Assembly: GCF_900112815.1 (NCBI RefSeq)
Contig: NZ_FOND01000006.1
Location: 66,216-130,215 of the forward strand
Source: Blastococcus tunisiensis
GTDB taxonomy: Bacteria > Actinomycetota > Actinomycetes > Mycobacteriales > Geodermatophilaceae
Reading direction: 5' to 3'
DNA length: 64,000 bases
This document shows positions 44,754 through 50,993 of this stretch, in pieces. The stretch's first letter is position 1, and each line of letters starts with the position of its first letter. A program made the translations under genes and the position numbers. Below the pieces are notes generated by a model. It saw only the letters and a program-made list of their open reading frames with translations. It was not told where the DNA came from and ran no database searches.

Positions 44754-45794
44754 TCAGGCCGGCGATCGCGGGCTCTCCGCCGGCGCGTGCGCCGGGCTCT
44801 GCGCCGCCAGCCGTGCCCGTTGCGGCTCCACGGTGTACCGCGGGTCGGCCGCCGAGGCCATCCCGGCCTCGAACACCCCCCAGCGGGTCAGCGCCGATGC
44901 GGTGAGGAGGAGCGCACCGCCGGCCCGTCCCAGCCAGGGCCTGCGGGCCCCGGCGAGGGCGGCGGCGCTGCCGGCGATCAGCAGCTTCTCCCCCAGCTTC
45001 ACCAGCCGGCCGGAGCGGCCGTGCGAGTAGGGCTCGCCGACCATCCCCAGCCGCTTCTCCAGGAGACGGGTCGCCGCGACCTCCGTCGCAGCGCCCGCGA
45101 CCGCAAGCCTGCGCGGGAGCCCCGCCTCGGCCGCCGGCCCGGCGAGCAGCCCCAGCCCCCCGGCCGACGCCGCGCTCGACCCCGCGAAGACGAACGGCAT
45201 CTCCCGGTAGGCGTCGTGCCAGGCCGGCACCGCCGTGTCCGACACCAGGGCCGCCGTGTAGGTGGCCACCCCGCCGCCCAGGAGCGCCGACCCGGCCGTG
45301 GCGAGCAGCCCCAGCCGCGGCAGCCGACCCGTCACCGCGCTGCCGGCCGCTGCTGCGGCCAGCGGCCCGTACCCGGCGAGCAACCACGAACCGACGCTCA
45401 TCGGCGAGGTCACCTTGATGACCCGCAGCATGTTGAGGAAGCGGCCCGGCCGGCCGAGGTCGTGGACCAGGCCGGCCAGGGAGAGGCCGAGGCCGGCCAC
45501 GGCGCCGGCCTTGGTGACCCGGGACAGACCCGGGCGGCGGGTGACGTCCGCCGCCAGCGCCAGCATCGACGAGGCGCCGGCCAGCCCCCCGGCGAAGAAG
45601 TACCCGGGGATGTCCGGCGTCTCCCACACCGGGGAGTTGAGGATCGGCTTGCCGTAGTAGGACGTGAACGCTGCGTCGGGGACCACGGGCTGCTCCCCGC
45701 CACGGCGCCGCCGGCCACCCCTGGCCCCGGTCAGCGCGCCGCGGCCGGGGATCTTCGGCTGCACGCCCTCCCGGGTCACCTCCGACTCGCTCAT
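44754..45794 (-). CDS. nrfD: NrfD/PsrC-type membrane subunit of formate dehydrogenase
   Basis: 346 residues; ATG overlaps the FdhB stop (ATGA). N-terminal disordered arm, then about eight membrane helices with IPGYFFAGGLAGASSMLALA, LVHDLGRPGRFLNMLRV and SPMSVGSWLL, the hallmarks of NrfD. It binds quinone and replaces the cytochrome b subunit of FDH-N. Last gene of the operon. It would pass electrons from the ferredoxin subunit to menaquinone. Confidence 0.93.
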   Translation of the reverse strand: MSESEVTREGVQPKIPGRGALTGARGGRRRRGGEQPVVPDAAFTSYYGKPILNSPVWETPDIPGYFFAGGLAGASSMLALAADVTRRPGLSRVTKAGAVAGLGLSLAGLVHDLGRPGRFLNMLRVIKVTSPMSVGSWLLAGYGPLAAAAAGSAVTGRLPRLGLLATAGSALLGGGVATYTAALVSDTAVPAWHDAYREMPFVFAGSSAASAGGLGLLAGPAAEAGLPRRLAVAGAATEVAATRLLEKRLGMVGEPYSHGRSGRLVKLGEKLLIAGSAAALAGARRPWLGRAGGALLLTASALTRWGVFEAGMASAADPRYTVEPQRARLAAQSPAHAPAESPRSPA

Positions 45795-46789
45795 CCTCGC
45801 CTCCCGACCAGCGCACCGACGACCATGCCGGCCAGGGAGAGCGCCGCCAGGCCGACGTGCCGCCACATGTCCGGCAGGTCGCGGGTGGTCACCACCGGGT
45901 CCGGTGGCAGGCCGTAGACCTCCGGCGCGTCCAGCAGCAGGAAGAACGCGCCGTCCCCACCGACGCCGTCGTCGGGATCGTGGCCGTAGAGGCGGGCATC
46001 GGCGACGCCCTGGCCGTGCAGCCGCTCCACCCGCTCCGCGGCGCGGTCCCGCAGCTCGTCGAGGACGCCGTACTGGATGGAGTCGGTCGGGCAGGCCTTG
46101 GCGCAGGCGGGCTCCTGCCCCACGGACGTCCGGTCGTAGCAGAGGGTGCACTTCCACGCCCGGCCGTCGTCCTTGCGCTGGTCGATGACGCCGTAGGGAC
46201 AGGCCGGGATGCAGTACCCGCACCCGTTGCAGATGTCCTCCTGGACGATCACCGTGCCGAACTCGGTGCGCACCAGCGAACCGGTCGGGCAGACGTCCAG
46301 GCAGGCGGCGTGCGTGCAGTGCTTGCACACGTCGCTGGCCATCAGCCACCGCAGGTCCCCCGTCCCCGCCGGCGCACCGTCCGGGCCGGCCGTGGTGGGT
46401 GTCATCGCGGCCGCCTGCGGTGCCGTTCCCGACCCCGCCGCCGCCATGTCCAGGACGTTCACCGACGAGTGGTCGACACCGGGTTCCTGGCCGGCCAGCG
46501 GCTTGCGCTGCTCGATGAAGGCGACGTGCCGCCAGGTGTCGGCGCCGAGGCCGGCGGTGTTGTCGTAGGACATCCCGGTGAGGGCGATGCCGTCCTCCGG
46601 GATGGCGTTCCACTCCTTGCACGCGACCTCGCACGCCTTGCAGCCGATGCACACCGACGTGTCGGTGAAGAAGCCCATCCGCGGCGGGTGGTCGGCGTGC
46701 CCGGAGAGCGTCGCCGGGTCCGCGTCGCCGCGCAACGCCCGGTCCAGGCCCGTGCGCAGCACGGGGGCGTCGAGGAAGACCCTGGTCAC
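45791..46789 (-). CDS. Formate dehydrogenase Fe-S subunit (four 4Fe-4S clusters)
   Basis: 332 residues from GTG 46789; MGFFTDTSVCIGC at residue 38 is the region where many homologues begin. Cysteine sets: CIGCKACEVACK (from C47), CKHCTHAACLDVCP, CNGCGYCIPACP, CTLCYDR ... CAKACP. A C-terminal membrane helix (WRHVGLAALSLAGMVVGALV) anchors it, as in FdnH/HybA. Electron conduit between catalytic subunit and NrfD. Confidence 0.94.
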   Translation of the reverse strand: MTRVFLDAPVLRTGLDRALRGDADPATLSGHADHPPRMGFFTDTSVCIGCKACEVACKEWNAIPEDGIALTGMSYDNTAGLGADTWRHVAFIEQRKPLAGQEPGVDHSSVNVLDMAAAGSGTAPQAAAMTPTTAGPDGAPAGTGDLRWLMASDVCKHCTHAACLDVCPTGSLVRTEFGTVIVQEDICNGCGYCIPACPYGVIDQRKDDGRAWKCTLCYDRTSVGQEPACAKACPTDSIQYGVLDELRDRAAERVERLHGQGVADARLYGHDPDDGVGGDGAFFLLLDAPEVYGLPPDPVVTTRDLPDMWRHVGLAALSLAGMVVGALVGRRG

Positions 46790-46804
46790 GAGGTCACCGC
46801 CATG

Positions 46805-49800
46805 TCAGATCTCCGTCCCGGTCTGCTCGGTGATGCCCGCCCGTTCCTGGTACTCGCGGACCAGTGCGCCGCGTGCCGGCCCCCGGGGCCGACGGCCCGG
46901 GCGGATGTCGCAGGTGAGCGCCTTCACCTCCTGGATGTGCACGTTGGGGTCGAGCGACTGGTGGCTGAGCTCGTTGGCGGCGTCGCCCGTGGTCAGCCCG
47001 TTGCCGCCCCAGTGGTAGGGCAGGCCGACCTGGTGCAGGGTGCGGCCCTGGACGGTGAGCGGCGTCATCCGCTCGGTGACCAGGACCCGGGCCTCGATCG
47101 CCGCCCGGGCGGTCACCACCGTGGCCCAGCCCAAGTGCTCCAGACCGCGCAACCGCGCCAGCTCCGGGGAGACCTCGCAGAACATCTCCGGCTGGAGCTC
47201 CGCCAGGTACGGCAGCCCACGGCTCATCCCGCCCGCCGTGTGGTGCTCGGTCAGCCGGTAGGTCGTCACCGCGAACGGGAAGACGTCCGAGCCGGGCGCA
47301 CTACCGGTCGGGTGGTACCTGTTGTGGTCCCCGGGCGGCAGCACCTGGCGGGCCGGGTTGCGCTGCTGCCCGTACAGCAGGTTGTCGAACGGCGATTCCT
47401 GCGGCTCGTAGTGGGTGGGCAGCGGCCCGTCGGCGAGCCCGGCCACCGCGAACAGCCAGCCCTTGCCGTCGGACTGCATGATGAACGGGTCGACGCCCGA
47501 CAGGGCCTCACCGCCGGTCGCGTCCTCGGGTGGCCGGTGCCACGGGGACATGTGCGCGTCGAAGTCGGGGATGTCGTGCCCCGTCCACGTCGCGCTGTCC
47601 TCGTCCCACCAGACCAGGGCCTTGCGCTCGCTCCACGGCTTGCCGTCGGGATCGGCCGAGGCGCGGTTGTAGAGGACGCGCCGGTTGGCCGGCCAGGCCC
47701 AGCCCCACTGGTTGGCCACCCAGTCCTGCTCCTTGGCCGGCTTGCGCCGGTCGGCCTGGTTGATCCCGTCCGCGTAGACCCCGCAATAGATCCAGCAGCC
47801 GCAGGCGGTGGAGCCGTCCTCCTCCAGCTGCTCGTAGCTGGCCAGCGGCCGGCCCTCGCCGTCGTAGCCGTTGATCTCGGCGAGGACGGCCTCGGCCTCG
47901 GGCTCCGCGATCCTCCCCTTGGTCGGGTAGTCCCAGGTCAGGTCGAGGATCGGCCGGTCCCGGGGATCGGTGGACCCGGCCAGCTTCTCCCGGACGATCC
48001 GGCCCAGGTGGAACATGAACCACAGCTCGCTGCGCGCATCGCCCGGCGGCTCGACGGCCTGGTGGTGGTACTGCAGCATCCGCTGGGTGTTGGTGAAGCT
48101 GCCGTCCTTCTCGGTGTGCGCGGCCGCCGGGAGGAAGAAGACCTCCGTCCCGATGTCCTCGGTCCGCAGCTCCCCGCTCTCGATCTCCGGTCCGTCCTTC
48201 CACCACGTCGCGCTCTCGATGAGGGAGAAGTCCCGGACGACCAGCCAGTCCAGGTTGGCCATCCCCAGCCGCTGCATCGCCGCGTTGGCCGACCCGACCG
48301 CGGGGTTCTCGCCCAGCAGGAAGTAGCCGGTGCAGGTGCCCTCCCGCTGGGCGTGCACGGTCTCGTACGTGCTGTGGCTCCCGGTCAGCCGGGGCAGGTG
48401 CCCGAAGCAGAAGTCGTTCTCCGGGGTGGCCGCGGCCCCGTACCAGGCCTTGAGCAGGCTGACCGTGTAGGCCCGCATCTCGGTCCAGAAGCCCTTGTCC
48501 GCCCGCTCGCCCTCGATGAAGGAGTCGAGGTCCTCGTCGGCGTGCGCGTGGGGCATCGGGATGTAGCCCGGCAGGATGTTGAAGAGGGTGGGGATGTCGG
48601 TGCTGCCCTGGATCGAGGCGTGCCCGCGCAGCGCCATGATCCCGCCACCGGGCCGGCCCATGTTGCCGAGCAGCAGCTGCAGCACCGCGGCCGCCCGGAT
48701 GTACTGCACCCCCACGGTGTGCTGGGTCCAGCCGACCGCGTAGACGAACTCGCTGGTCCGGTCGCGGCCGGAGTTGTCCACCAGTGCCCGGCAGACCTTC
48801 AGGAACAGCTCCTGCGGGATGCCGCAGATCTGTTCCACCATCTCCGGCGTGTAGCGCGCGTAGTGCTTCTTCAGCACCTGGAAGACGCAGCGTGGGTGCT
48901 GGAGGGTCTCGTCGCGCTGCGGCCTGCCCTCCGCCCCGCTGGGACCGCCCGAGCCGGCCGACTCACCGCGCGAGTGCTTCTCCTGCAGCTTCTCGTACTG
49001 CTGGTCGCGCTTGCCCGAGGCCGCCTGCACCTGCGCGCCCTCGTACTGCCAGGAACCGGTGCTGTACGTGCGCCCCTCGCGATCGAAGCCCGAGAAGACG
49101 CCGTCGAGGTCCTCGGTGTCCTGGAACCCCTCCCGCAGGATGTTCGGCGCGTTGGTGTAGTTGACGACGTACTCGCGGAAGTACTTCTCGTTCTGCAGGA
49201 CGTGGTTGATGATCCCGCCGAGGAACGCGATGTCGGTCCCCACGCGCAGCGGCACGTGGATGTCCGCGAGCGCCGACGTACGGGTGTACCGGGGGTCGAC
49301 GTGGATGACCGTGGCCCCCCGCGCCTTGGCCTCCATCACCCACTGGAAGCCCACCGGGTGGCACTCGGCCATGTTCGAACCCTCGATGACGATGCAGTCG
49401 GAGTTCTGCAGGTCCTGCTGGTAGGTCGTGGCCCCGCCGCGACCGAACGAGGTGCCCAGACCGGGCACCGTGGAGGAGTGCTATATGCGTGCCTGGTTCT
49501 CGATCTGCACCGCGCCCATCGAGGTGAACAGCTTCTTGATGAGGTAGTTCTCCTCGTTGTCGAGGGTCGCTCCCCCGAGCGAGGCGAAGCCGAGCGTCCG
49601 GTTGACCTTCTTGCCCTCGTCCTCGTCCTGCCAGCCCTGACGGCGGCTCCTCAGCACCCGCTCGGCGATCATCTCCATCGCGGTGTCCAGGTCCAACGGC
49701 TCCCAGTCCGTCCCGTGCGGCCGCCGGTAGAGGACCCGGTGCTCCCGTCCGGAGCTGGTCACCAGCTGCTTGGTGGCCGCCCCCTTGGGGCACAGCCGCC

Positions 49801-50047
49801 CCCGGCTGACCGGCGAGTCGGGGTCGCCCTCGATCTGGGTGACCCGGCCGTCCTGCACGTAGACGTTCTGGCCGCAGCCCACCGCGCAGTACGGGCACAC
49901 CGACTTGACCACCCTGTCGGCCGTGGCGGTCCGGGGAACCAGGTTCCTCGTGGTCGCGCTGTAGGCGGCGCTCCCCCGCCCGAGCGGGTCGTCCCCGGTC
50001 AGCTGCCGGTACACCGGCCAGGACTCGATGAATGTCTTCAGGCCCAT
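46805..50047 (-). CDS. Formate dehydrogenase catalytic subunit, selenoprotein with UAG-encoded selenocysteine
   Basis: 1080 residues if the in-frame UAG at 49483-49481 is read as Sec189. Start is ATG 50047 with GAGGAA upstream. N-terminal 4Fe-4S motif C51-PY-C54-AVG-C58 ... C86 (CPYCAVGC, GRLCPKG) and molybdo/tungsto-bis-MGD domains. The frame before UAG ends ENQARI and the frame after it resumes HSSTVPGLGTSFGRGGATT; known formate dehydrogenases read ARI-U-H-SS here, so the stop stands exactly on the metal-binding Sec/Cys. The 891 codons behind it are intact and well conserved. No twin-arginine signal, so it probably faces the cytoplasm. Oxidises formate to CO2. A pseudogene reading is unlikely given the SECIS hairpin behind UAG. 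Confidence 0.93.
49451..49469 (-). promoter_or_regulatory. Bacterial SECIS hairpin
   Basis: On the mRNA strand, GGTGCCC-GGTCT-GGGCACC: seven perfect pairs around a GGUCU loop. It begins 11 bases after the UAG, the same distance and the same loop letters (GGUCU) as the SelB-binding hairpin of Escherichia coli fdhF behind its UGA. SelB recognises this element to deliver Sec-tRNA. Confidence 0.88.
49481..49483 (-). other. UAG codon recoded to selenocysteine (Sec189)
   Basis: The codon preceding CAC TCC TCC is TAG, not the usual TGA. Its place matches the catalytic Sec of formate dehydrogenases. UAG-Sec decoding by a tRNA-Sec with CUA anticodon is established for Geodermatophilus and Blastococcus; neither that tRNA nor selA, selB or selD lies in this window. 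Confidence 0.88.
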
Positions 50048-50054
50048 CGGTTCC

Positions 50055-50993
50055 TCACTGCTCCGTCTCGGGGTCGGGGTGGCCGGCACGGTCCGCGGGC
50101 CGCCCGGTGGCGTCCCGGGCCTCGTCCAGTGGGACGGCCGACGTCGCTGCCGCCGCCACGACCGGCCCGGGCCGGCGCGGGGCGTGCGGGTGCGGCCGGG
50201 TGGGTGCGTGCACCTGCGCGTCGAGGACGCGCCGGCCCAGCTCCGCCCGCTCGTCGTCGGAGAGCGCGTCGCGCAGGCGGAGGAAGACCTGGTCCTCGTG
50301 GGCCACGTGCTTGTGCAGCTGGGACGTCACCTCCTCCACGAGGTCGTCGAACTCCTCGCTCTGCGGATCCGCGCGGGACAGCGCCAGGAAGGTCTCGGTG
50401 GCCTGCTGCTCCTGGGCGATCCCCCGCTCGGCCCAGTCGTCGCCGTCGGGCAGGACGCGGCGCACCGCCGGCCAGAGGTGCTCCTCCTCGGCGGTCTCGT
50501 GGGAGGCCAGCGCCATGCTGATCATGTCGACGATCGACTCCCGCTCCGAGGCCTGCGCCGGGGTGCCGCCCGTGCTCGCGCCCGGGATTGCCGACAGCTG
50601 CTTGACCAGCGAGACGACCGCGTCGTGCTGCCGGGTCAGGACCGTGACGACGTCGGCGGTGGCACCGGGGTCGTTCACGGGGCCGGGTGTGGCCGTCCGG
50701 GCGCGGGCGGCGGCGACCATCTGCGGGTCCGCCCCGGCCCGCCGGCGCAGCCACGGGTGCACCACGGAGCTCGCATCGGGCTCGTGCAGCCGCGGGTTGG
50801 CCAGGTGCTGGCTGCTGCCGGGGAGGACCCCGGGACGCCGGTTCTCCGCCTCGGTGACGACGTCGCTGCCGTCCGCGGGGAAGCCCGTCGCGATGAGGTA
50901 GGCCAGCCCCGGGTGGATGCCCAGCCGTCGGGCGGCGGCCGGGTAGTCGGTGCCGCCGTCCAGAGCGGCGAGGACCTGGTCCCTGGTCGGCAT
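50055..50993 (-). CDS. Hemerythrin HHE-domain protein
   Basis: 312 residues from ATG 50993 with GGTGGAGG directly upstream. The middle section (about 115-240) is a four-helix hemerythrin-like domain with H123, H165-ETAEEE-H172 and H229-VA-H232-E233 as di-iron ligands. The N-terminus (MPTRDQVLAALDGG ... AARRLGIHPGLAYLIATG) looks like a helix-turn-helix or carrier segment. Directly upstream of the formate dehydrogenase gene in the same operon: possible O2, NO or iron guard for the oxygen-sensitive selenoenzyme (inference). Confidence 0.88.
   Translation of the reverse strand: MPTRDQVLAALDGGTDYPAAARRLGIHPGLAYLIATGFPADGSDVVTEAENRRPGVLPGSSQHLANPRLHEPDASSVVHPWLRRRAGADPQMVAAARARTATPGPVNDPGATADVVTVLTRQHDAVVSLVKQLSAIPGASTGGTPAQASERESIVDMISMALASHETAEEEHLWPAVRRVLPDGDDWAERGIAQEQQATETFLALSRADPQSEEFDDLVEEVTSQLHKHVAHEDQVFLRLRDALSDDERAELGRRVLDAQVHAPTRPHPHAPRRPGPVVAAAATSAVPLDEARDATGRPADRAGHPDPETEQ

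Follow-up and report, generated by a model that had tools for sequence, protein, structure and literature searches.

We find that fdhA, the gene for the alpha subunit of a formate dehydrogenase, carries an in-frame TAG which is best explained as a selenocysteine (Sec) codon, read by way of tRNA-Sec(CUA), SelA, SelD, SelB and a hairpin 3' of the codon, under a code that probably arose in one move from UGA to UAG; on the sequence evidence collected so far, we put the probability of this reading at about 0.96. UAG-Sec recoding is already in print, the recoding of Geodermatophilaceae having reportedly been described by Mukai et al. in 2016, and what is new here is its extent across the family, over most of which the trait has apparently been inherited. 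The window, that is, the whole stretch of 64,000 nucleotides that was analysed, is part of contig C19 of the genome studied here (G000:C19; assembly of 5.04 Mb, 99.74% complete) and holds the fdh operon with the following features:

46805–50047, minus strand: fdhA, formate dehydrogenase alpha subunit, 1080 residues with one TAG read through, from the start codon ATG at 50047 to the TGA end at 46805
49481–49483, minus strand: in-frame TAG at residue 189 (numbering from the ATG at 50047), the catalytic Sec/Cys position
45791–46804, minus strand: beta-type 4Fe-4S subunit with Fer4 domains, the next operon gene after fdhA
44754–45790 (approximate bounds), minus strand: probable NrfD-type membrane subunit of the fdh operon (NrfD PF03916, 45.6 bits, cut-off 25.8)

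With TAG taken as a residue, fdhA is a single open frame (window 46805–50050, minus strand; a GTG at 50089 is an alternative start) that reads ...GAVQIENQARI-U-HSSTVPGLGTS... and continues beyond the TAG for 891 codons before TGA. The initial annotation had placed a UAG at the catalytic Sec site of formate dehydrogenase, in the context ENQARI-UAG-HSSTVPGLG and ahead of an intact frame of 891 codons, and in all three respects it is borne out, by the bases CTA at 49481–49483 of the plus strand and by minus-strand translation with TAG as residue 189. The protein matches the NCBIfam model NF041513 (formate_DH_Act) with 2017.5 bits (cut-off 1400) and has profile matches to the domains Molybdop_Fe4S4, Molybdopterin and Molydop_binding; the top NCBIfam match of the beta-type subunit is FDH-beta (TIGR01582), at 189.1 bits and under its cut-off of 334.7. 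Gene callers had been expected to split fdhA, and the mechanical list of open reading frames does cut it into pieces of 887 and 202 aa. These two frames are what could be cited for a gene that is truly split, its 188-residue and 887-residue products being jointly functional without Sec. Such an arrangement is very improbable, considering that the break falls at the catalytic residue, that the sense relative in G299 (L098) is one chain with TGC at the site and a frame of 1140 aa open without a stop, and that synonymous positions of the stem 3' of the TAG vary in pairs, as described below.

The distribution of the codon was surveyed in 112 genomes of the family, with fdhA rows taken at E ≤ 1e-40. 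This yielded 121 rows in 100 of the 112 genomes, and each of the 118 rows that cover the site contains exactly one TAG and no TGA; the remaining three (two of G079 and one of G034) miss the site. Direct inspection placed the TAG at the Sec codon in 30 of the 118 rows and in the second copy of the genome studied here; elsewhere its position is inferred from its being the sole stop in a match that includes the site. Nine genera (g1–g4 and g8–g12) have rows with TAG. The family, f1, to which the genome studied here belongs, is indicated to be Geodermatophilaceae by nine of its 30 compared loci, each of which has 100% identity to a named Blastococcus, Geodermatophilus or Modestobacter locus. In-frame stops usually point to a sequencing error or a decayed gene, and G079 holds two broken fdhA copies. 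Sequencing error or pseudogene formation as the source of the fdhA TAG is nevertheless refuted by the 118 of 118 rows with one TAG, and the intact 891-codon frame and the presence of the same codon in two unrelated families, UGSC and redoxin, leave it a negligible probability. The two G079 copies (L178 on C12 and L179 on C4) are both missing the region around the Sec site and lose the frame before reaching it, which may reflect either a real loss or an assembly error.

In an order-wide sample of 397 genomes, 267 have an fdhA match, and among the matches listed outside the family there are 65 fdhA rows, 57 with TGA, eight stop-free and none with TAG alone; one of the 57 (G209) has an extra TAG, 23 codons 5' of the TGA at its Sec site. 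The best 80 of 589 confirmed named loci comprise 12 with TAG, 56 with TGA and 12 with Cys, so that the earlier claim of Sec or Cys at this site in relatives holds for these 80; the 12 TAG loci belong to Geodermatophilus (1), Modestobacter (7) and Blastococcus (4), and to no other genus. Within the family, fdhA is absent at E ≤ 1e-40 from all nine genomes of the genera g5–g7, and hence no pair of UGA and UAG orthologues was seen within the family.

Five genes of the genome studied here have TAG at a Sec site, namely the fdhA gene of the window and the following four:

C42:88904: second fdhA copy, TAG seen at the Sec codon
C28:478056: UGSC-family gene, TAG in *GSC
C19:162891 (outside the window): UGSC-family gene, TAG in *GSC
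C23 (L176): redoxin, TAG in ...GDW-U-PYC...

Across the family, UGSC accounts for 93 rows in 53 of the 112 genomes, of which 72 have one TAG, 21 are stop-free and none has TGA; 70 of the 93 lie above the model cut-off, 50 of these with TAG, and the TAG was located in *GSC in all five TAG loci inspected. In genera with a UCA tRNA-Sec (G066, G072), UGSC is the sense Cys form and is thus uninformative on the Sec codon that these genera use. The redoxin was found in 30 rows from 30 of the 112 genomes, with one TAG in all 28 rows that cover the site, the other two starting after it. AhpC-TSA gives seven matches in the genome studied here, one of them with TAG, and the redoxin family was matched by no NCBIfam model; the redoxin with DW-U-PYC (L176, L267–L278) may or may not be the AhpC family reported in Blastococcus saxobsidens.

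Stop codons in the window were counted over 26 coding-like open reading frames with a full stop codon, selected by a crude composition filter: 23 end in TGA, three in TAG (two of these being short, with 95 and 100 codons, and possibly spurious) and none in TAA. The next stop in the redoxin frame is another TAG, so that UAG would serve there both as Sec and as stop, provided that this is the true end of the gene. Since UAG still ends other genes, the recoding appears to depend on context and not to be a global reassignment.

As a check, it had been proposed to search the genome for a tRNA-Sec with anticodon CUA together with selA, selB and selD, and all of them were found, clustered on contig C26; lack of this tRNA or of SelB would have refuted the Sec reading, which the outcome instead favours. 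The tRNA is located as follows:

C26:210373–210464: tRNA-Sec(CUA), anticodon loop CU-CUA-AA, RF01852 69.1 bits (cut-off 47)

SelA, SelB and SelD each score above the cut-off of their model (TIGR00474, 418.6 bits; TIGR00475, 279.4 bits; TIGR00476, 389.4 bits), and SelB retains the SelB-wing_3 domain (50.8 bits). SelD has Cys in the motif HGGGCACK, a position occupied by Sec in some SelD proteins. RF01852 has seven matches in the genome, and the two above the cut-off are the CUA tRNA-Sec and a tRNA-Ser; the codon being TAG, neither the UGA codon nor, among these two matches, the UCA anticodon of canonical UGA-Sec was found in this system. Pyrrolysine, or the residue carried by some other amber suppressor, might alternatively be inserted at position 189, and ARAGORN does call the CUA tRNA 'tRNA-Pyl', a label taken from the anticodon. 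A pyrrolysine reading is rejected since the RF01852 model identifies the CUA tRNA as tRNA-Sec, and, with CUA tRNAs sought among the RF01852 matches, an amber-decoding tRNA of any other kind is exceedingly unlikely: this tRNA adjoins selA and selB, resembles the UCA tRNA-Sec of the family save for the anticodon arm and a few bases, and would have to be reconciled with relatives that, in the best 80 of the 589 named loci, hold TAG, TGA or Cys at the site.

For the Sec reading, a route can be proposed in which SerRS would charge the C26 tRNA-Sec(CUA) with serine, SelA would convert the charged tRNA into Sec-tRNA using selenophosphate from SelD, and SelB would carry the Sec-tRNA and bind a hairpin with a GGUCU loop just 3' of the TAG. 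Sec would then be placed at the TAG in competition with RF1, presumably giving a full-length, selenium-containing formate dehydrogenase. The hairpin and the codon that precedes the TAG are located as follows:

49451–49469, minus strand: SECIS-type hairpin, 7-bp stem of nt 14–20 with 26–32 (T of TAG = 0) and apical loop GGUCU at nt 21–25
49484–49486, minus strand: ATA isoleucine codon immediately 5' of the TAG

The loop is the same in sequence and spacing as the SECIS loop of E. coli fdhF, and the hairpin after the fdhA TAG folds with −16.7 kcal/mol. Over 32 distinct TAG fdhA sequences, every stem pair is canonical in at least 31. At pair 17/29, formed by two synonymous third positions, 20 of them have C-G, eight G-U and four G-C, and pair 14/32 is canonical in 31. 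Among 57 distinct TGA sequences, pair 14/32 is canonical in 13 and the other six stem pairs are kept throughout; 12 distinct Cys sequences all retain three of the seven stem pairs, the other four being mostly broken (intact in 0 to 4 of 12). Most stem pairs lie in conserved codons, where the Cys forms differ in amino acid (they have, for example, Ala in place of Pro at +6), so that the informative pairs are just the two synonymous ones, 17/29 and 14/32. Mean free energies over 42 nt are −16.2 (TAG), −10.8 (TGA) and −12.6 kcal/mol (Cys), and because folding is stronger in the Cys control than in the TGA sequences, free energy alone is no marker of the hairpin. Hence, it is on the paired synonymous changes in fdhA that we base the assignment of a SECIS hairpin to this UAG-Sec system. 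Single-sequence folds, made with no shuffle control, also place a hairpin after the codon in each of the other four Sec-TAG genes.

ATA immediately precedes the TAG in all 32 distinct TAG fdhA sequences, a count which is not one of independent cases, the underlying loci (L046–L075 and 12 named TAG loci) being mutually related; among the other isoleucine codons of that frame in these 42 TAG loci, ATA makes up 32 of 1233 (2.6%). In relatives, the codon before the TGA is ATT or GTT in 54 of 57. UGSC has GAT before the TAG in all five loci inspected, where its Cys forms have GAC in eight of eight, and the redoxin has TGG. Comparison of ATA, GAT and TGG indicates that no simple rule of context holds across the three families.

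A tRNA-Sec was found, at E ≤ 1e-9, in 110 places in 108 of the 112 family genomes, including every one of the 96 with completeness of 90% or more and contamination of 5% or less. The anticodon was read at 49 of these places: 41 are CUA, all in the genera g1–g4 and g8–g12, and eight are UCA, seven of them in g5, g6 and g7 and one in a second copy in G058. CUA and family UCA tRNAs differ in the anticodon, in the anticodon-stem pair next to the loop (U-A changed to C-G) and in a few other bases. The UCA genomes of the three genera (G066, G068–G070 and G072–G074; L018–L023, L026) have no fdhA match. Among 25 chosen genomes outside the family, 22 gave a match, of which 21 are UCA; the remaining one (L163 in G246) was rejected as a tRNA-Sec, being a tRNA-Ser. 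A sample of 30 genomes was assembled for an rpoB tree, of which six had no match (G066, G068, G069, G200, G238, G130) and two were left out (G073, a fragment, and G161). In the resulting tree of 22 genomes, all 13 CUA rows form one clade (100/99; present in every one of 200 bootstrap trees), to which the three family UCA rows do not belong. The outgroup row G149 is placed between the family UCA and CUA groups (92/89), so that this single gene does not support the unity of the family. In the simplest view, a single switch of the Sec codon from UGA to UAG would have taken place on the branch leading to the CUA clade of Geodermatophilaceae, the tRNA anticodon changing together with Sec sites in three or more protein families.

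The Geodermatophilus genome G058 (genus g3) has tRNA-Sec(CUA) with selA, selB and selD on C11 (L077), and its fdhA and UGSC matches contain one TAG each. It also holds, on another contig (region L076:1000–5500):

C17:1173–1263: second, very different tRNA-Sec(UCA), 81.8 bits
C17 (L076:1579–2157): AhpD/CMD-type gene beside the UCA tRNA, TIGR01926 112.6 bits (cut-off 81.8)

The AhpD-like gene has TGA in NRCFY-U-MESHAEF, followed by a 7-bp hairpin; its five other matches in the family (E ≤ 1e-20) are 33–40% identical and stop-free. A tblastn search of C17 found no selA, selB or selD on the contig, and one SelA/SelB pair would thus have to serve two Sec tRNAs with different anticodons. The UCA stretch has about 61% GC, against about 68–82% for the rest of C17, and from their translations the flanking frames look like transposases. 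Searches of plasmids with the stretch gave tRNA-length matches and nothing longer, and those with the AhpD-like protein gave relatives that are all below 60% identity. It is tempting to speculate that G058 uses two Sec codons at once, UAG and UGA, and that the UAG-Sec clade is open to UGA-Sec, a proposal to which we would give slightly less than even odds; contamination or a chimeric contig is a possible source of the UCA stretch. Our searches of the open literature turned up no genome reported to use two Sec codons, which does not prove that there is no such report, and genomes with several tRNA-Sec genes are described in a passage of PMC5330540. If the proposal is true, G058 makes the running of two Sec codons in one cell directly testable.

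In Tsukamurella tyrosinosolvens, plasmid NZ_LR134459.1 (L279:4900–14452) carries a selB-selA-selD-nrfD-FeS-fdnG module, in which an unannotated stretch between selA and selD matches the UCA tRNA-Sec of G058. UGA-Sec modules do, then, travel.

The present results add one more genome to those with a natural amber-Sec code, confirmed at the level of sequence, and document the stability of this code over nine genera, which turns the family into a natural test of how the Sec codon can pass between stops; it also becomes predictable that standard gene callers will split fdhA, UGSC and redoxin genes. That UAG-Sec had been reported before, as the initial annotation stated for Geodermatophilus and Blastococcus, is correct as regards the family and Blastococcus: passages of the two sources state that tRNA-Sec(CUA) occurs in three genomes of Geodermatophilaceae and that their FDH and UGSC genes contain UAG, as reported by Mukai et al. 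(Santesmasses et al. 2017, PMC5330540), that Blastococcus saxobsidens DD2 has an AhpC with Sec-UAG and a bSECIS (PMC5330540), and that UAG specifies Sec in Blastococcus (PMC5133445). As far as those passages of PMC5330540 go, the system described here is the same, with tRNA-Sec(CUA) and Sec-UAG in FDH and UGSC; it differs in that it comes from another genome, of genus g1, with two fdhA genes, two UGSC genes and a Sec-UAG redoxin, and in that the extent of the trait is here measured over 112 genomes. With canonical UGA-Sec, as represented by fdhA of Actinomadura, Streptomyces and Pseudonocardia, it shares the FDH family, the position and loop of the hairpin, and selA-selB-selD. However, the canonical system combines TGA with UCA, ATT or GTT precedes its TGA in 54 of 57 sequences and its pair 14/32 is canonical in 13 of 57, whereas here TAG is combined with CUA and preceded by ATA, and the same pair is canonical in 31 of 32 TAG sequences.
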